Shown: positions 46,722-56,794 of the stretch, one piece after another
How positions within the stretch are numbered: position 1 is the first letter of the stretch
How the letters are laid out: each line of letters begins with the position of its first letter
Origin: Saprospiraceae bacterium
GTDB lineage: Bacteria; Bacteroidota; Bacteroidia; Chitinophagales; Saprospiraceae
Length of the DNA: 64,000 bases
Assembly (NCBI GenBank): GCA_013140975.1
Contig: JABFRV010000041.1
Coordinates: 82,164-146,163, forward strand
Direction: 5' to 3'
Notes under the pieces: model-generated
Seen by the model: only the letters and a program-made list of their open reading frames with translations
The model's database searches: none
Told to the model about the DNA's origin: nothing
Translations under genes and position numbers: made by a program

Positions 46722-47573
46722 TCAGGATAAGGCATGTACTACAATTACTCTATTTTTTCCTTGCATATCTTTTCGTAGTTCAACGTTTTGATAATTCAGA
46801 GAGCTGAATATTTCTGCTACTTCTCCGGATCGGAACTCATTCAGTTCACAATAGATTTTACCATTCGAATGAAGATGTGTTTTTCCAAATTCCGCAATTA
46901 CTTTATAAAAAACATCCGGATCATTCTCATTACCAAAAAGGGCTATATGCGGTTCGAATTGAAGCACTTCTTTACTTAGTATGTTTTGTTCCTGATGAGA
47001 AATATAAGGTGGGTTGGATATAATTATATCATATTTATTATCCAGGAGATTTGACTGTGTCAAAAAATTCAATTCCAAAAAATTTATTTTTGCGGCATGT
47101 CTAATTGCATTCAGTCTTGCAACATCTAATGCATCTTTAGAAACATCTACAGCATCAATATTCCAATGTGGAAATTTATTTGCAAGTGAAATTGCTATGG
47201 CTCCACTTCCTGTGCCAATATCAAGAACATGAAGTTCGTTCTTAGTATCCTTAAAATCATTTATACAATTGAATACCAATTCTTCGGTCTCCGGTCTTGG
47301 AATCAGGACTCTTTCATCAACAAATAATACCAGGTTCATAAAAGCTGCCTCTCCTATACAATATTGAACGGGTCTACCCTCTCTTAACTGATCTGTTAAT
47401 TGCGTCCAAGGCTCAGTTTTAAAAAAATCGACAGATCCACTATACAAAATATTATTCTTAAAATAATTAGAATTATAGATGTAAAATGCTATATTATTCA
47501 AATTATCAATACTATATTCGTCAGATAAGACCCTTGATAAAATTTGGCATAGTTCTTGTTGTGTTACATACAT
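46722..47573 (-). CDS. prmC: Peptide chain release factor N5-glutamine methyltransferase
   Basis: VLIPRPETEELV; VLDIGTGSGAIAISLA; IISNPPYI. Confidence 0.95.
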   Translation of the reverse strand: MYVTQQELCQILSRVLSDEYSIDNLNNIAFYIYNSNYFKNNILYSGSVDFFKTEPWTQLTDQLREGRPVQYCIGEAAFMNLVLFVDERVLIPRPETEELVFNCINDFKDTKNELHVLDIGTGSGAIAISLANKFPHWNIDAVDVSKDALDVARLNAIRHAAKINFLELNFLTQSNLLDNKYDIIISNPPYISHQEQNILSKEVLQFEPHIALFGNENDPDVFYKVIAEFGKTHLHSNGKIYCELNEFRSGEVAEIFSSLNYQNVELRKDMQGKNRVIVVHALS

Positions 47574-47591
47574 ATTATAATTTTATTTAAT

Positions 47592-49793
47592 ATGTTCAAA
47601 CTCAAAAACAAGCTCTCGAACCAGACAAAAATTGTGGTGAATTTCATAACCACTGCAATATTACTGTTTGTTGCTCTTACTGAAACTATATCTCAAAACA
47701 TTTCAAAGGCTAAATTAGAAAGCATCAATTTCCTTACCAATGAATTGAATATTCAGTGTAAGCTAGGCACACATACTAAAGCGGTTTTAAACATGTCAGA
47801 CTTTGAAGCTTTATTGAATTGCGAGAAAGCAACAGTGAATGTAAACAAAGCCCTACATTCTAACCAATCTGAAAAGCTAGTGCTTTATTCCAAAGAATTT
47901 TTCGAACCAAACTATAAAATATGGGTAGATAGTTCGAATGGTATGAACATGATTGAATGCAATACCGGAAAGCATTTTACAGGAATAATAGAGAATGAAC
48001 CCAATTCCACTATAACTTTAAGTATCTACGACAATTCATGTCGAGGATTAATAATACACGATAATGGAGAACAAAGCCTAATCTCTTCTACAATCACTGA
48101 GTCCGGAATTGAATTAAATTTCACACCTGCTCCTATTCGCCAAAAAGAATTGCATTGCATGACCCACGATATAGAGCATTTTATTGAAGCAGACAATTCA
48201 CTTTCACTAAGAACTCGTGAATCTTGTAATCGTGTCGCGATTTCTATTCGTGCTGATTATGAACTGTATCTTAGATTCAACAAAAATTCCCAATCCGTAG
48301 TAACATATGTTACTTCCCTATTCAATCAGGTTCATTCTATTTACAGAAAAGAAGAAATACAAATTTCTATTTCAGAAATAATTATCAATACTGTTGCCGA
48401 TGGGTTTCCGCACACAAGCTCCAATGCAGATTTGAACTATCTTAAGAATAAATATAAAGCCTTCAACGGAAACATAAGTTTAGTTTTATCAGGATTTCTA
48501 CGTAGCGGAAAAGCCAGTCTTGGTGGAGTAGCATATATTAATAGTGTTTGTCTAAAATCCTTTGCGTTTGGATTTGCAAATATTGAAATTAGCGACAATA
48601 AGAATCCTAACTTTAATTATGACGCCTTTCTCGTTGCACACGAATTAGGACATGTTATGGGATCAAGACATACACATGCCTGTGTCTGGGGACCCAATAA
48701 AAACCAGGCATTGGATAATTGTGCTACAGTCGAAGGTAGTTGTAAGCCCATATCTTCCACTTTCAAGGGAAGCATTATGAGCTATTGCTATTTACCCGGT
48801 AAGCCCGGGATAGATTTTAATACAGGATTTGGACAAGAACCGGGAGATCTTATTCGCAAAAACATAAAAGCCTCCAGCTGTTTGACGCCATATTCTCCAC
48901 AATTAAGTACTATTTCAAATCCAGCTACAACAATTCAAGCAAATGTGGAGTGTTCAGATGGTCAGTATTCACATTACTATTTTGACAATAATACGATCGA
49001 TGAAAAAGATGATATCCTTATCGCTTCAATTAAAAAGAATACGGAGGATATTGGAAATATTTATGATGGTTCATTACAAATTAAAGCACACACAACAACA
49101 CTTTATGGAACAAGCAAAGCGATAGAATTAAAAGTCGCTTATTCACAAAAAAATGTAATACCGGCTAATCGATATTGGGAAATAAATTCTAACAAGCAAA
49201 TTACTAAACCTATTCATATAAAACTTAATTATTCAGCATCAGATCTAAAGGATATACAATTTATTCTTCCAACAATTTCTACAGAGAAATTAAGCTTCTA
49301 TACAGTTAAAGAACCTGCTTCCGCGAATCCGGATCTAAAGCACTCAGGAATTACAACCATGGTATACAAAGAATATAAAAATTCTTCCATTGCCGGTTCC
49401 TCTTTCTGGCTTAACAAGAAACTGAATGAAAATATCTACTCCGCTGAATTTCAAATTGAATCTTTAAACCTGGACATAGGCTTAAGTTACAATAAGTCAA
49501 ATTCATTCAATGATCTTTCTTCAAGAACTTCTTCAGAAATTAAAATAAAATCAATTAACAATCCCATTTCGAATGATGAGCTACTCATTTTTGCTGATTT
49601 TGTTTCCCAACCTTTACAACCGGTAACTATACAACTTTATGATCTTGCAGGAAAGCAAATGAAAACAATTTCTATCGCGCTTCAAAAATCGTACAATTCA
49701 ATCCCTGTGAGTGATATTATGCCAGGTATGTATCTAATTGTAATTGATTCTAATGGACAAAGGATATTTAAACAGATTTTGACAAGGCTTTAA
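47592..49793 (+). CDS. Secreted reprolysin-like (M12B-like) metalloprotease with T9SS sorting tail
   Basis: HELGHVMGSRHTHACVW zinc motif; tail ISNDELLIFADFVSQPLQPVTIQLYDLAGKQMKTI...GMYLIVIDSNGQRIFKQIL. Confidence 0.9.
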   Translation: MFKLKNKLSNQTKIVVNFITTAILLFVALTETISQNISKAKLESINFLTNELNIQCKLGTHTKAVLNMSDFEALLNCEKATVNVNKALHSNQSEKLVLYSKEFFEPNYKIWVDSSNGMNMIECNTGKHFTGIIENEPNSTITLSIYDNSCRGLIIHDNGEQSLISSTITESGIELNFTPAPIRQKELHCMTHDIEHFIEADNSLSLRTRESCNRVAISIRADYELYLRFNKNSQSVVTYVTSLFNQVHSIYRKEEIQISISEIIINTVADGFPHTSSNADLNYLKNKYKAFNGNISLVLSGFLRSGKASLGGVAYINSVCLKSFAFGFANIEISDNKNPNFNYDAFLVAHELGHVMGSRHTHACVWGPNKNQALDNCATVEGSCKPISSTFKGSIMSYCYLPGKPGIDFNTGFGQEPGDLIRKNIKASSCLTPYSPQLSTISNPATTIQANVECSDGQYSHYYFDNNTIDEKDDILIASIKKNTEDIGNIYDGSLQIKAHTTTLYGTSKAIELKVAYSQKNVIPANRYWEINSNKQITKPIHIKLNYSASDLKDIQFILPTISTEKLSFYTVKEPASANPDLKHSGITTMVYKEYKNSSIAGSSFWLNKKLNENIYSAEFQIESLNLDIGLSYNKSNSFNDLSSRTSSEIKIKSINNPISNDELLIFADFVSQPLQPVTIQLYDLAGKQMKTISIALQKSYNSIPVSDIMPGMYLIVIDSNGQRIFKQILTRL

Positions 49794-50282: not shown

Positions 50283-50711
50283 ATGAAAGAATCCATTTAT
50301 CCTTGCTTATGGTTTGACGGAAAATCACATGAAGCTGCCGATTATTATTGCAGTATTTTTCCTGATTCCAGAATACTCAACAAAACTCCTATGGTATGTG
50401 TATTTGAGTTGGGTGGAAGAAAAATGATGCACCTAAATGGAGGTCCGGAATTTACTTTTAATGAATCTATTTCCTTTGTTATCTCTTGTGAATCTCAGGA
50501 GGAAATTGACTATTACTGGTCTGCTTTAACAAGTAACGGTAGGGAAGGTAAATGCGGTTGGTTGACAGATAAATATGGCGTTTCATGGCAGGTTGTCCCA
50601 TCGATATTGGGTGGCCTCATGAGTGATCCAGAAAAAGCTCCAAAGGTGATGTATGCCTTTATGCAAATGAAAAAATTTGATATACAAAAACTTATGGATT
50701 CCGCTCTGTAA
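50283..50711 (+). CDS. VOC family (PhnB-like) protein
   Basis: ITPCLWFDGKSHEAADYYCSIFPDSRI-like start; GWLTDKYGVSWQVVPSILGGLMSDPEKAPKVMYAFMQMKKFD. Confidence 0.93.
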   Translation: MKESIYPCLWFDGKSHEAADYYCSIFPDSRILNKTPMVCVFELGGRKMMHLNGGPEFTFNESISFVISCESQEEIDYYWSALTSNGREGKCGWLTDKYGVSWQVVPSILGGLMSDPEKAPKVMYAFMQMKKFDIQKLMDSAL

Positions 50712-50713
50712 CT

Positions 50714-52009
50714 CTACTCAGCAAAACCTGGAAAAGAGCGAATCAAATAATTTTTAAATGGTCTTTCTACGATTCTTCCATTAAGCTTAAGAAATGAAAT
50801 ATATTTTCTATACACGTTCTCATAAAGTTTTAATTTTTCCTCTTTATACTCTTTATCTCTAATCAAAAGTTCTATCCATTCCTGAGGATCAAGATTGGAT
50901 TTGGTTTGTGGATTTTCCAATAAGCTTTTTACCAGGCTTTTTTCTGAAAAAGAATCAACGAATTTGTAATGTTGGATGGCAGAAAGAAGTTCATTTTTTG
51001 CAATTGTTATCCGATCTTTATTTTCTTTCTTTTTGGAATCTAATTCATTTCTCTCTTCCATAATATCCAAAATCGCCTCAGCCTTCCTGAATCTGTTATT
51101 GGCGGTAAGTGGAACACTTAATCCAACTCTAAACGAAAAATTATTCAATGTATTAAATTTATTCGGTCGGTCCAGGTATAATGGATTATCATAACTTAAG
51201 CGTATGTCATTTAAAATTTTCCGGTTTTGAGAATTTATATAATTGTATTTAGATTGTAAGTAATCTATTCGATGTTCCAATACAGTTTCATCCGGAAGAT
51301 TCTTAGTTCGATTGCTAATTGCAAGACCTAGAACTTCATCTTCAATCTCCTTTACTTTTAGTAATTGTTCTTCATAGATCGGATTAACACTTTGACCTTG
51401 TACATACCCATTGATTTTATCTGTACAATTTTTTTGGGATTGAAATATTTTATTCCTATTTTTTTCAGATTCGTGTAGTTCCTTGTCATTTCTAAGGAGA
51501 TCCTGAAGATCAAATTTTTGATTCAACTCGATCGCTTTCTTTAAAAAGTCTTTCTTTACATGTAGAAGGCTATCCAATTCCTTATAATGCTTAGACCAAA
51601 TCGAAATCCACATATGGTCAAGCAACAAATCATAACGTTCATCCAAAGCTGATTGAAGGATTTCATCATATTCTGATCTATAAAGCTCAAGCTTTGCATC
51701 TTTGAGTTTCTTTTGTCGCTTAATTTCCAGGAGACTGTTCGGTTCTATAAAAATAGCGTAGTTATCTTCATTTCGCAGATATCCATAAATTGTGTCACCC
51801 AATGCTGCGCCGCTAATTCCAATTCTGGCATTAATACTTCTAATCCAGGGCGATTGAAATTTAATATTTTCTGCTGCACGAACCAATTCAATATTCTGTA
51901 ATACTTTAGGATCACTAAATGAAGAACATAACAAGGAAGACATCCAGTTATTTTCTTGACCAAAAATAAAATTACAGGATAACGAACAAAGGATAAACTT
52001 CCAGTTCAC
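50714..52009 (-). CDS. TolC-like outer-membrane-factor protein
   Basis: Long alpha-helical hairpins; FRVGLSVPLTANNRFRKAEAILDIMEERNELDSKKKENKDRI resembles OMF VGLSLPLF...R.; 1-nt overlap with upstream gene. Confidence 0.6.
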   Translation of the reverse strand: MNWKFILCSLSCNFIFGQENNWMSSLLCSSFSDPKVLQNIELVRAAENIKFQSPWIRSINARIGISGAALGDTIYGYLRNEDNYAIFIEPNSLLEIKRQKKLKDAKLELYRSEYDEILQSALDERYDLLLDHMWISIWSKHYKELDSLLHVKKDFLKKAIELNQKFDLQDLLRNDKELHESEKNRNKIFQSQKNCTDKINGYVQGQSVNPIYEEQLLKVKEIEDEVLGLAISNRTKNLPDETVLEHRIDYLQSKYNYINSQNRKILNDIRLSYDNPLYLDRPNKFNTLNNFSFRVGLSVPLTANNRFRKAEAILDIMEERNELDSKKKENKDRITIAKNELLSAIQHYKFVDSFSEKSLVKSLLENPQTKSNLDPQEWIELLIRDKEYKEEKLKLYENVYRKYISFLKLNGRIVERPFKNYLIRSFPGFAE

Positions 52010-53004
52010 TATTTATTTTGATTTAATGAAATAGAAATTTTTTCGCCAATATAAAATCCCTGATTACTATTCATCTGAATAAAGACCTCTCTTCCCCAGG
52101 CACGCACCTCGATAAATTTCCTGAGACGTAAAGGCAACTCAACCAATCTGGGACTAACAGAAGTTATAATTCCACTCGAGATTAAATCCTGACGCGTTGC
52201 AGATGAAAGCTGAACTGAATCACCCAATTGAAAATTAATTTGAGAAGATTCATGAATAAATCCTATGATTCTTGTCGGCACTTTAGGATTAATTCTAAAT
52301 AAATCTTTAAATGCCTGAATAGAAGCATTCTCCTGAACCGCAATCTGATCTACATACCCATCAAATGGCGCTGTGATCACAATGTTTCTATATACTTCTT
52401 TGTTGTATTGATAATTCTTAATTCTTGCATTTATCTTACCAGTAGAATACTTTCTAAGCGAACGTAACTCTTCATCCATTAATCCGGATTTATTAAGATA
52501 AATACTATGCAATTTACCAATCTGCACTTGAAGATCCTTTATCTTAGATTGATTAACAGTTGAGGCATTACTTACTTCTTTTGATATAAGCAAGCTGTAT
52601 TTGGCATCCATCGAATCTTTAATCAAAAGTGCATTCAACTCGGATTGCAACTTACCAATCTCGTAATTAGATTGAGATTCCAACAATTGTTTGTCTTTAT
52701 TTAATTCAGCAATTCTGTTCCCTAACTCCAGCCTTTCAAGTAAGTTCGTTTCATTTAAGCTTAAAGAATCTCTGTCAACCAATTTCCTGGAAGCGATCAT
52801 TAAAGTATCACCTTCTTCTACATATTGGCCTGGTGAAACAAACAATTTATCAACGAGAAGATCCTTGTCAAAATTTATTACTCTTGAATCAGATTCCGCA
52901 GTCCCAAAAAAACGAAAATCGCTATTTCCTTTTAAATTGTTGATGATGTATAATGCGCCTAAAAAAGCAATCGCAAGAATAATATAAAAAGGATTAAATT
53001 TCAT
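52009..53004 (-). CDS. HlyD-like periplasmic adaptor / membrane fusion protein
   Basis: N-terminal TM; lipoyl-like halves VDKLFVSPGQYVEEGDTLM and ITAPFDGYVDQIAVQENASIQAFKDLFRI around a coiled-coil hairpin. Confidence 0.82.
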   Translation of the reverse strand: MKFNPFYIILAIAFLGALYIINNLKGNSDFRFFGTAESDSRVINFDKDLLVDKLFVSPGQYVEEGDTLMIASRKLVDRDSLSLNETNLLERLELGNRIAELNKDKQLLESQSNYEIGKLQSELNALLIKDSMDAKYSLLISKEVSNASTVNQSKIKDLQVQIGKLHSIYLNKSGLMDEELRSLRKYSTGKINARIKNYQYNKEVYRNIVITAPFDGYVDQIAVQENASIQAFKDLFRINPKVPTRIIGFIHESSQINFQLGDSVQLSSATRQDLISSGIITSVSPRLVELPLRLRKFIEVRAWGREVFIQMNSNQGFYIGEKISISLNQNK

Positions 53005-53007
53005 TCC

Positions 53008-53694
53008 TTAAATTTCAGTTGATTCTGAATTTAGATTCTGAAAACGACGAACATCAATCCCCTGTTGCGAAAACTGCTTTATCATTATTTCGCGTTCAGA
53101 ATCATCGTTCATTACCAACAAGTAATCTCTATCTTGAGTAAAAACGCCTTCTGCCCCCGTATTTTTTATACCTTCTAATGATGACTTTTTACAAAATTTT
53201 GAAAGATATAATTCAATATCATTAATTTTATCTTCTGTCTTAATTCTTAGCCTTACACTCCAAATAAGATGATTACCAAGTGAAAAATTTGTAAACTTAA
53301 GTGAAACGGCCAATATACAAAACGTGAGTGTTCCTATTATTGCAATTGTAAATACATATGAACCACACGCAATTCCTACCCCTAAAGCTGCGAACATAAA
53401 TATAATATCTCTGGGGTCTTTAAAGTTCGTGCGAAAATTAATAATTGTCAAAGCACCCAATATCCCTAAACCGGATGCTACATTATCTCCAATACTTTGA
53501 AGTATCATTGTAGCAATTACGGAACTGAGCATAAGCGCCTGAATGTAATTTGAAGTTTTTAAAGTATTGGGTGTAGTAAAATAATAACAAAGTGCAATTG
53601 CTGAAGAACAAAGAAAAGCCACGATAAAGGTGAAGATCACCATTTCTGTAGTTGGATTCTCTATTTTCGAAAATAATGAAAATAAATCCTGCAT
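53008..53694 (-). CDS. DUF4956-like membrane protein
   Basis: GLGILGALTIINFRTNFKDPRDIIFMFAALGVGIACGSYVFTIAIIGT characteristic of DUF4956. Confidence 0.82.
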   Translation of the reverse strand: MQDLFSLFSKIENPTTEMVIFTFIVAFLCSSAIALCYYFTTPNTLKTSNYIQALMLSSVIATMILQSIGDNVASGLGILGALTIINFRTNFKDPRDIIFMFAALGVGIACGSYVFTIAIIGTLTFCILAVSLKFTNFSLGNHLIWSVRLRIKTEDKINDIELYLSKFCKKSSLEGIKNTGAEGVFTQDRDYLLVMNDDSEREIMIKQFSQQGIDVRRFQNLNSESTEI

Positions 53695-53777
53695 ATTATG
53701 TCAATTCAATAGAATCCACAAATATACACGCCCCACTGATAGATTTTCAATTTTTTAGGTCAAAGTGACTCATTACA

Positions 53778-53803
53778 TAAAAAAAGCCCTGAAAGGCAGG
53801 GCT
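53778..53803 (-). terminator. Rho-independent terminator (minus strand)
   Basis: Minus-strand AGCCCTG-CCTTT-CAGGGCT followed by T7 run. Confidence 0.8.
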
Positions 53804-53848
53804 CAAGTAATAGGTAACACAACTTAAAATATCCTATGTAACACCCGA

Positions 53849-54844
53849 TCAGAGTGTTGATAGGTATTTCTTTATTTCTTCTAAAGATTTCTTTTCTATT
53901 TTTATTTCTGTTAGATCTACATCAGATATTACAGTTTCTTTTGCGCCCAAATAATAATCTGACACACCCTTTCCAATGACTATATAAATAACCTTCTTTT
54001 CAAATGGCAAATTCTTAAAACAAATTTTACTGCTTTTATTAGGCTCTGTTTCTGCACAACAAGGAAAAAGTGCAGTGTTAATGTCTTTAAAAATACAGTA
54101 AGTCGTCAATTGAATTTTATCACCTGAAGGATCCGAAGTAACACTGACACAACTACTAACAAGTTTGGCATTCTGTAATCCCAAGAAATAATCACAATTT
54201 ACCCAGCCTAATCTTTCAGGAAAACATTCTATTCCAAGTACAAAATTATTCTTATTACTTCTCCATTCAGAAATATTCACATTATCTGTGATATTAGGAT
54301 CCATATCTGCTTCTTCCCATGTTACATTTCCATCTGCATTGACATCACCATAAAACATTTCCAGTTGATCCTTAAATTTATTCTGATCATAAACCAAACG
54401 AAGTGTGTACTTTTTCCCTGGTGCTAATTGCAACTCTCTTTCATTACAAAAAACCCTTATGGATACCATACCTGCGGAGACCAATAATCTGTCTTTAGTT
54501 GCATTGGTTCCCACTCCATTTTGCATCATCTCGTCTTTATTTTGAACCTTTGCAATTTTTACAAGAATTGTATCACATGTAACAGCACTTCCTTTATCTG
54601 TAAAACAATTTTTTGGAAAAACGACCTGGCTTCCATCTTCAAAATTTAGAATATTGTCCTGATTAGGCTTAATGCTAAATTCTGTCTGCGTATTATTTAT
54701 AGACGCCAATGAATTTCTAACTCCTGAAGGATTCCAAGAATGAGGGATAAAATCAAATGGATCGAAGACATTTACGTTCTCGCACCTTGATAAAATCAGA
54801 ACTGTACTAACTGCTAAAATTATGAATTTGAAATAAGTTTTCAT
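53849..54844 (-). CDS. Hypothetical lipoprotein with calcium-loop-like DVNADGNVTWEEAD
   Basis: MKTYFKFIILAVSTVLILSRCEN lipobox; ATG at 54844 chosen over 54919. Confidence 0.7.
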   Translation of the reverse strand: MKTYFKFIILAVSTVLILSRCENVNVFDPFDFIPHSWNPSGVRNSLASINNTQTEFSIKPNQDNILNFEDGSQVVFPKNCFTDKGSAVTCDTILVKIAKVQNKDEMMQNGVGTNATKDRLLVSAGMVSIRVFCNERELQLAPGKKYTLRLVYDQNKFKDQLEMFYGDVNADGNVTWEEADMDPNITDNVNISEWRSNKNNFVLGIECFPERLGWVNCDYFLGLQNAKLVSSCVSVTSDPSGDKIQLTTYCIFKDINTALFPCCAETEPNKSSKICFKNLPFEKKVIYIVIGKGVSDYYLGAKETVISDVDLTEIKIEKKSLEEIKKYLSTL

Positions 54845-54893
54845 GTTTCTTGTATCTGCTCTATTGACTTTTAGAATGGTTGTATTGTTGCCT

Positions 54894-56204
54894 CTATTGA
54901 AATAAATATTGCAAACCAAATTTCAGTTGATAAGAACTAAATTTTTGATCCAATGAATAAGAGGAATTGGTAAATGTTGGATGAAGCTGTATCTGTGGCT
55001 CAACATAATACCTCAAATTATGCATAATAGGGCCACTCCATTGAATATTGAAAAACGGAGAAATTCCTACTGCAGATTTATATATATTTAGCGGGCTGTT
55101 AAATTGTGCCGGTCTAAGTAATGGATCCAATACAGCACCATTGCTTCGCATGAATAAATTCAAAGAAGCTCCTACGTTAAATTGAATGGAATTCTCTTTG
55201 CGATTCACCTGATATCCAATAGATATTGGCAGGTTGAACATATGATGATTATTATGATGTTTTATTGTTCTTCTTCCAAAAACTGTATCCGTTACGACAA
55301 TCGTTCCATTGATAGTTCTTGTATTGATTATTGTATCATTTCCATTAAAATAATTCAACTGATAATAGATGTTCTGATATTCCAGGCCTGCTTTTACATT
55401 CCATTTCTTGTTTTGAATTCCAATTCGAACTCCGGCAAGCATAGACACTTTTTCAGATTCAGTATCTTCTCGAAGTAGTTTTAAATAATTATACTCCGCT
55501 ACATTTGTAGAAAATGTAAACGGAGAATATTGTGGCCCAGCGTACACATCTACTGAAAACTTAGCTTTCCTTCTACCATTGAAATCATAACATTCCCCTT
55601 TTAAAGGAAGATCCAGAGATACATTGCTATAAGAAAGAAGAGAAGTTACCTTCGTAGGCAATACATTTAAACTTGCTTCTGATTCTTGTTCTATAGAATT
55701 ATTAGCAATAGAACGATTATCAATATTATTATGAGAGACAGTCTTTACTACAATCTGATTTTGAATCGAAGCAGATTCAATATTTTTATTTTCCTGCATC
55801 AGGTGATCTTGTGATCTATGATTTTTTGCGGAATTAAGTTTCTTTGAAATTTTTATTTCTGATTGATTCTTTTCTACATTGATGTTTTTACTTTCTGATT
55901 CCTTTGTATTACTTAAATTTAAGGAAGTTAACTCTTTCGTTTCATTTTCAATAGTGGAGACAGAACTTACATTCTGCGAATTTTGAATTCCCTTTTTATC
56001 ATCTAATGGATTAGAATTATAAAAATAATAAGCAACCATCCCGGCGCCTAAAAGCAATGGAAAAAATAACCAAATAGGTTTACGATTCCGCTTCTCTCCT
56101 TTTGGCAAATGAGGGATAACATTTTCCCAAATTCTTTCAGGAACTTTTGGTGTTTTTGTATTTTCCATATCTCTTATGTGATCTGTCCATGTAGTCTTTT
56201 TCAT
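54894..56204 (-). CDS. Putative anti-sigma-like N-terminus + TM + periplasmic linker + beta-barrel-like C-terminus
   Basis: Cytosolic-like N-term; TM PIWLFFPLLLGAGMVAYYFY; polar linker; beta-rich FSVDVYAGPQYSPFTF...SYQLKFGLQYLFQ; 4-nt overlap with sigma gene. Confidence 0.7.
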   Translation of the reverse strand: MKKTTWTDHIRDMENTKTPKVPERIWENVIPHLPKGEKRNRKPIWLFFPLLLGAGMVAYYFYNSNPLDDKKGIQNSQNVSSVSTIENETKELTSLNLSNTKESESKNINVEKNQSEIKISKKLNSAKNHRSQDHLMQENKNIESASIQNQIVVKTVSHNNIDNRSIANNSIEQESEASLNVLPTKVTSLLSYSNVSLDLPLKGECYDFNGRRKAKFSVDVYAGPQYSPFTFSTNVAEYNYLKLLREDTESEKVSMLAGVRIGIQNKKWNVKAGLEYQNIYYQLNYFNGNDTIINTRTINGTIVVTDTVFGRRTIKHHNNHHMFNLPISIGYQVNRKENSIQFNVGASLNLFMRSNGAVLDPLLRPAQFNSPLNIYKSAVGISPFFNIQWSGPIMHNLRYYVEPQIQLHPTFTNSSYSLDQKFSSYQLKFGLQYLFQ

Positions 56205-56794
56205 AAGGAGTATTTAAGGTTGGGATTCAATTTGATAATTTGACGTGCTAAATAATTTTTAGCTTTAAACAATTGCGACCTGCAGGTTGATTCAGTTACA
56301 TTGAGCAATTCTGCAATTTCAGTATAAGAATAACCTTCGACTATACTAAGGTTAAATACAGTCCTATATCCCGGAGGCAATTTATTGATCAGTATTTCAA
56401 TTTCCTGATAAGAAATCTCACTAATTGCGTCCGGCTCAACGGATCGATCATAGAATGCTTCTTCATTCGATTCCATATGAACTGAATACCAGGACTTAAT
56501 TTTGGACAGACAGGTGTTTACCATGATTCTCCTTATCCAGGCACCTAGCGGCCCATCTGACTTAAAAGTGTGAAGGTTCTGAAAAATCTTGATAAAACCA
56601 TCTTGGACTGCATCTTCTGCTTCATTTGAATTGGTAAAATACCTGTTACACAATGCCAACATAGGGGATGCATATTGGTCAAACAGCTCCTTACAAGCTT
56701 TCTGATCACCGGAAAGGCATTTTTCAACGAGGATTTTGTCGTCCATCACTTTATTAGACGTCACAAAATAGGGATCTGTTGCCCAAAAGCCCAA
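56201..56794 (-). CDS. ECF RNA polymerase sigma factor
   Basis: NEAEDAVQDGFIKIFQNLHTFKSDGPLGAWIRRIMVNTCLSKIK; GYRTVFNLSIVEGYSYTEIAELLNVTESTCRSQLFKAKNYLARQI. Confidence 0.93.
   Translation of the reverse strand: MGFWATDPYFVTSNKVMDDKILVEKCLSGDQKACKELFDQYASPMLALCNRYFTNSNEAEDAVQDGFIKIFQNLHTFKSDGPLGAWIRRIMVNTCLSKIKSWYSVHMESNEEAFYDRSVEPDAISEISYQEIEILINKLPPGYRTVFNLSIVEGYSYTEIAELLNVTESTCRSQLFKAKNYLARQIIKLNPNLKYSL

Follow-up and report, generated by a model that had tools for sequence, protein, structure and literature searches.

The sequence analyzed here, which we call the window, is a stretch of 64,000 nt (G000:C139:82164-146163) within a 3.97-Mb draft genome whose closest named relatives are Saprospiraceae. 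Three consecutive minus-strand genes, with frames read from the sequence, encode a DUF4956 protein, an HlyD-type adaptor, and an outer-membrane factor (OMF), in that order (Table 1). The DUF4956 stop at 53008 and the adaptor start at 53004 are separated by 3 nt. The adaptor and OMF genes overlap by 1 nt, with the last G of the adaptor stop codon (TAG) doubling as the G of the OMF start codon (GTG) at position 52009. An earlier sequence-only reading had described three minus-strand genes with a 3-nt gap followed by a 1-nt overlap, and the coordinates bear this out.

Table 1. Features of the DUF4956 locus, with positions numbered along the window
Feature	Position	Strand	Basis
DUF4956 inner-membrane protein, 228 aa	53008..53694	-	PF16316, 45.4 bits; AlphaFold model
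HlyD/EmrA-type periplasmic adaptor, 331 aa	52009..53004	-	HlyD_D23 and HlyD_3 over curated cut-offs; alignment A2
TolC-fold outer-membrane factor (OMF), 431 aa	50714..52009	-	AlphaFold model compared with PDB; alignment A3
Intrinsic terminator closing the upstream sigma-factor gene group	53784..53804	-	8-pair stem followed by a T-run
TATATTTG, candidate -7 promoter element of Bacteroidota type	53719..53726	-	Read from sequence

The terminator has a folding energy of -12.4 kcal/mol (z = -3.4). As it lies between the sigma-factor group and the triad, the three genes constitute their own transcription unit. A candidate promoter element, TATATTTG, is located approximately 25 nt ahead of the DUF4956 start; the consensus for the Bacteroidota -7 element is TAnnTTTG. 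Downstream of the OMF, the next gene is on the opposite strand and ends at 50711, adjoining the OMF stop.

The sigma-factor group (53849-56794, minus strand) encodes an ECF-type sigma factor (Sigma-70 family), a protein of 436 aa containing barrel-like repeats and a single transmembrane (TM) helix, and a secreted protein or lipoprotein of 356 aa. We considered and rejected it as part of the operon, because the terminator intervenes and because, among the loci fetched, the same trio precedes the operon only in the closest relative (L032). On the other side of the triad, a plus-strand gene (47556-49793) encodes a secreted metalloprotease-like protein that carries the motif HELGHVMGSRHTH and ends in a sorting-like tail; homologues occupy the equivalent position in L032 and L033. 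A search of viral contigs found no relative. An anti-phage role was likewise rejected, as PADLOC returned nothing above one chance-level match.

Protein families and predicted structures

The DUF4956 protein matched PF16316 over residues 34-134, exceeding the cut-off of 30.6 bits. All 15 of its aligned relatives matched this family too. Its AlphaFold model, of moderate confidence (pLDDT 76.7, pTM 0.54), contains five TM helices (residues 16-40, 48-68, 70-87, 94-111, and 115-134). These are followed by a predicted C-terminal cytosolic domain with a beta-alpha-beta-beta-alpha-beta, ferredoxin/ACT-like topology. Basic residues K45, R88, K92, and R95 are predicted to lie in loops facing the cytosol, and R88 is invariant in 179 of 179 aligned homologues. 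The whole-protein model gave no clear match to PDB structures.

As modeled, the combination of a TM bundle with a cytosolic ACT/ferredoxin-like domain may resemble the layout of MgtC/SapB proteins, to which DUF4956 also bears weak sequence similarity. Sub-threshold similarity to MgtC was found in 4 of the 15 relatives (E to 1e-4) and in locus L227. The window protein itself falls below the curated MgtC cut-off (PF02308, 21.7 vs 31.4 bits). The modeled C-terminal domain weakly matched 2lqj, the C-terminal domain of MgtC (E ~0.015), as one of many ferredoxin-like matches.

The adaptor scored above curated cut-offs for HlyD_D23 (33.3 vs 30) and HlyD_3 (25 vs 22.2), and its profile matched solved EmrA, HlyD, and MacA chains. 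It has one N-terminal TM helix, a lipoyl domain whose halves are split around a helical hairpin, and a conserved C-terminal block (P-x-R-x-R/K-K...G-R-E). The RLS/RLT motif by which adaptors dock to TolC (R...L......S/T; PMC3391258) is absent from the hairpin of the window adaptor. It is present in 36 of 132 relatives, where 12 were expected by shuffling.

The third protein begins with a signal peptide and is recognized at the sequence level only below threshold (OEP, 17.5 vs 22 bits). Its AlphaFold model, built from a 16-sequence alignment (pLDDT 84.8), shows long helices and strand pairs arranged on the two-fold plan of TolC. All PDB matches at E <= 0.001 were OMFs (OprN, TolC, OprM, OprJ, SilC, and CusC; best E 2.7e-10). 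The predicted structure thus confirms the protein as an OMF of the TolC/OprN fold. The three identities proposed by the sequence-only reading (DUF4956, split-lipoyl adaptor, and OMF-like protein) are upheld by Pfam scores for the first two and by comparison of the AlphaFold model with the PDB for the last.

Conservation of the gene order and the search for a linked pump

We scanned the DUF4956 alignment against 84,980 species genomes and retrieved the best 80 of 389 confirmed loci. At most of these 80, the genes for DUF4956, HlyD-type adaptor, and OMF occur in that order. The triad spans several bacterial phyla and was found in Saprospiraceae, Lewinella/Neolewinella, Cytophagales, Pleomorphovibrio, Fibrobacter, Chitinispirillaceae, and one Halobacteriovoraceae genome. 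Across all loci fetched, and counted irrespective of kinship, DUF4956 is directly followed by the adaptor at 104 distinct loci, with the OMF next at 90 of them. Median gaps are 3 nt between DUF4956 and adaptor (104 loci) and -4 nt between adaptor and OMF (90 loci). With some 90 distinct loci repeating it in overlapping or near-touching genes, the order is far beyond chance. Conservation of the three-gene linkage had been set as a check on the original proposal, and these counts provide it.

The adaptor is specific to this context. In 26 related genomes, its subfamily yielded 11 matches (332-418 bits), all at DUF4956 loci, while no other adaptor in those genomes scored above 67 bits with the adaptor profile. 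Tree distances of DUF4956 and adaptor were strongly correlated over 121 loci (Spearman 0.95, uncorrected for species relatedness). In three sister species (L046-L048), DUF4956 and the adaptor are separated by a CotH gene.

No ABC, RND, or MFS gene was detected in the operon by Pfam, and neither Pfam nor the models pointed to a domain in these proteins that could supply energy. Among the 25 families listed for 55 same-strand neighbors, no pump family was common to at least two. When the 1145 genes lying up to 8 kb from the 104 loci were screened crudely by motif and hydropathy, 14 pump candidates emerged. We rejected these as a pump hidden beside the triad: they are scattered singletons, apart from ABC genes at L035, L103, and L137 that represent one small clade. 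The sequence-only claim that a canonical motor is missing therefore stands when checked as gene neighborhood, both within the operon and as a conserved feature around the 104 loci. A polyphosphate kinase was present beside the locus in 1 of the 55 neighbors. The suspected case at L079 turned out to encode an S1-domain protein.

Association with CotH and VTC genes

Related loci place the triad within a broader group of genes. The phylum was sampled evenly (297 genomes, 74 with DUF4956), and classification of 74 DUF4956 neighborhoods revealed the adaptor in 41 and a VTC (polyphosphate-polymerase-type) gene in 46. Three arrangements recur in this sample: DUF4956-adaptor-OMF, adaptor-VTC-DUF4956, and VTC-DUF4956-adaptor. 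The adaptor thus keeps with DUF4956 while the other genes vary. Five-part loci also exist. L227 encodes CotH, DUF4956, HlyD, OMF, and VTC together with an LTD protein, all identities being backed by Pfam matches, and L100, L118, and L150 likewise carry CotH, VTC, DUF4956, HlyD, and OMF. L138 carries DUF4956, adaptor, OMF, and VTC along with an LTD protein. On a Hymenobacter plasmid the order is adaptor-DUF4956-TolC, with the adaptor matching our own profile (E 8.5e-08) and not Pfam.

CotH genes near triads were counted with a kinase-domain profile, which leaves out LTD and sorting-tail proteins; by this measure, 17 CotH genes lie no more than 6 kb from a triad, every one encoded on the same strand as the triad, and of the 87 triads without VTC just 13 have a CotH at that distance. 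The window belongs to this VTC-less branch (HO-, 87 rows), which has no VTC gene within 6 kb. In a tree of 179 DUF4956 proteins, the window protein belongs to a large group whose loci have adaptor and OMF and no VTC, and the closest outsiders to this group carry adaptor, OMF, and VTC. The simplest reading of this topology, which depends on the root, is that VTC was lost in the window's group.

The window genome contains one DUF4956 gene, one polyphosphate kinase, and three CotH genes; a domain search gave no VTC match. None of the CotH genes is linked to the triad, and the window locus showed no pel genes. One of the three, on another contig (L215:7765-10128, G000:C190), encodes a CotH kinase with an LTD domain and a type IX sorting tail. 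The CotH embedded in the sister-species operons finds by far its best match here (999-1114 bits), making this gene a likely, though unlinked, partner of the triad. It appears to be an operon member that has moved out or in.

Four loci from single-membrane bacteria (Planococcus, Pseudobutyrivibrio, Paenibacillus, and Nonomuraea) carry DUF4956 with VTC, three of them also with CotH. The Nonomuraea DUF4956 is known from a tblastn match rather than a gene call. Adaptor and OMF are absent at all four.

Several groups of loci depart from these patterns. A small DUF4956 clade (L114, L117, L122, and L151), nested among triad-bearing relatives, has short CotH/LTD-like genes as neighbors and neither adaptor nor OMF; its members have likely lost the conduit secondarily. 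At L178, L180, L181, L183, and L186, a short DUF4956 protein (~185 aa) occurs a few genes from a CotH-like protein of ~530-545 aa, with no VTC, adaptor, or OMF nearby. Fourteen loci within L201-L229 (family code f43) have the triad amid fixed neighbors and no adjacent CotH or VTC: BrkB-like, methylpurine glycosylase, YceI, and DUF6580 genes upstream, and a short-chain dehydrogenase downstream. These may offer a system for genetics free of CotH and VTC.

A possible envelope-spanning conduit

An adaptor together with an OMF implies a duct leading through the periplasm and out across the outer membrane. Its sole constant inner-membrane partner is DUF4956. In our preferred reading, which we regard as about equally likely to be right or wrong, the triad represents the CotH-VTC-DUF4956 set as adapted to double-membrane cells. 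The three proteins would then assemble into one envelope-spanning conduit with DUF4956 as its inner-membrane base or gate. Single-membrane loci retain VTC, DUF4956, and usually CotH; the one portion missing from them is the machinery for passing the outer membrane, as this model predicts. The sequence-only reading had likewise suggested DUF4956 as the inner-membrane component of an undescribed conduit. The checks of linkage and of adjacent pumps left that suggestion unrefuted, and it is partly supported; that the three proteins assemble into one complex, that DUF4956 serves as gate or translocator, and the nature of the cargo are inferred. The sequence-only reading did not see that the unit is nested in a CotH/VTC/DUF4956 set, which partly explains the triad. 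Counting against the conduit are the moderate DUF4956 model with no clear whole-protein PDB match, the docking motif missing from the window adaptor, the scarcity of CotH near VTC-less triads, the f43 loci with neither CotH nor VTC alongside, and the lack of a reported effect when SIR_1593 is deleted in Streptococcus intermedius.

In the preferred reading, DUF4956, with its five predicted TM helices and cytosolic ACT-like domain, would form the inner-membrane base, the HlyD-type adaptor would span the periplasm, and the TolC-type protein would provide the outer-membrane exit. At complete loci, a cytosolic VTC-type polymerase would make a phosphate chain or similar anionic polymer and push the growing chain through DUF4956, such that synthesis itself would be the motor. 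Adaptor and OMF would carry the polymer outside, and surface CotH kinases would work on the same product or on the matrix. Since the window's branch lacks VTC, a polymer-synthesis motor cannot be general. In this branch DUF4956 would probably act as an export gate for some polymer or phospho-compound that the cell makes at another site, driven by membrane potential or by synthesis. A bolder version, possible but rather unlikely, has DUF4956 defining a new type of inner-membrane partner for HlyD-TolC conduits. It would be a small gate resembling MgtC; a cytosolic VTC-type polymerase, or another source in VTC-less branches, would drive an anionic phosphate polymer through it directly to the surface, for CotH kinases to act on.

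Adaptors and OMFs are often common to several pumps. Such sharing would fit an ordinary tripartite exporter whose pump is encoded elsewhere, with DUF4956 an unrelated neighbor in an old operon. We disfavor this reading as very improbable: DUF4956 and adaptor stay paired as VTC, CotH, and OMF shift, their trees agree, and the adaptor subfamily was never seen without DUF4956 in 26 genomes. Another proposal, unlikely yet deserving consideration, retains a generic pump elsewhere for adaptor and OMF and casts DUF4956 as an MgtC-like regulator, or a sensor of phosphate or energy, that controls or assembles the complex. The sub-threshold MgtC similarity and the weak resemblance of the C-terminal domain to 2lqj, among many ferredoxin-like folds, point this way. 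According to work cited in PMC12345266, MgtC regulates ATP synthase and phosphate uptake. Set against this are the absence of a conserved pump beside the triad (104 loci, 1145 genes) and the exclusivity of the adaptor subfamily. An adaptor private to DUF4956 argues against a shared pump, which would need no private adaptor.

The triad could instead be a structural bridge or anchor across the envelope, for instance for surface CotH or a polysaccharide complex, with nothing passing through it. The missing energy-giving domain is consistent with such a role, as are the CotH/LTD surface proteins encoded beside some loci and the altered Pel-dependent aggregation of streptococcal mutants (PMC12345266). 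We nevertheless judge it improbable, because the modeled OMF preserves the complete TolC fold, including its long hairpins and its strands, because proteins of the OMF type are known channels, and because VTC-linked loci suggest a cytosolic source of polymer.

The conduit reading relates the triad to several known systems. Like AcrAB-TolC, MacAB-TolC, EmrAB-TolC, and HlyBD-TolC, the operon combines an adaptor of the EmrA/HlyD/MacA fold with a TolC-fold OMF. It differs from tripartite pumps and type 1 secretion in that the inner-membrane partner is DUF4956 rather than an ABC, RND, or MFS protein, with no linked energized pump. To our knowledge, DUF4956 is not in the same Pfam family as the Vtc membrane domains. 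The eukaryotic VTC complex (Vtc1/3/4) nonetheless offers a parallel in its polymerase feeding a chain into a small basic membrane channel, and in yeast polyphosphate synthesis is coupled to passage through this TM channel (PMC9911596). VTC-domain genes lie beside DUF4956 in related loci, whereas the window genome has no VTC domain. FUSC-type pumps (FusCDE with Bucl8; PMC7682875) are also adaptor/OMF systems outside ABC, RND, and MFS. However, the operon contains no FUSC gene, and its inner-membrane protein is a DUF4956 of 228 aa with 5 predicted TM helices.

Functional information comes from Gram-positive pel accessory genes encoding CotH, VTC, and DUF4956 (PMC7112168; SIR_1592-1594, PMC12345266), which share with our loci a DUF4956-type protein with a C-terminal ACT-like domain and the link to CotH and VTC. 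Five-part loci combine this accessory set with the adaptor/OMF set. In contrast, the monoderm loci have no adaptor or OMF, and the window locus has no VTC and an unlinked CotH. In Streptococcus intermedius, deletion of SIR_1592 (TM-plus-ACT) or of SIR_1594 (CotH) alters Pel amount and aggregation, while no effect is reported for deletion of the polymerase-like SIR_1593 (PMC12345266). We equate SIR_1592 with the DUF4956 gene described in PMC7112168. These phenotypes link the CotH-VTC-DUF4956 set with surface polymer, without naming the cargo. The same study states that the three genes were not found in synteny outside pel loci. We find VTC, DUF4956, and CotH together in loci of Bacteroidota, Fibrobacterota, and Bacillota where pel genes are neither annotated nor recognized, as judged without a specific pel search.

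A major review defines tripartite conduits by their ABC, RND, or MFS motor (PMC8277102). In the full-text literature, with subscription papers and preprints outside its scope, three papers name DUF4956 and none links CotH, HlyD, and TolC. Each kind of component is known; their combination and its breadth appear undescribed. If the conduit reading is true, a widespread conduit with a different and unstudied inner-membrane partner would be an added class, and DUF4956 would gain its first role. The function of the CotH, VTC, and DUF4956 genes in streptococci and clostridia, where mutants have a polysaccharide phenotype without a mechanism (PMC12345266), would become testable.
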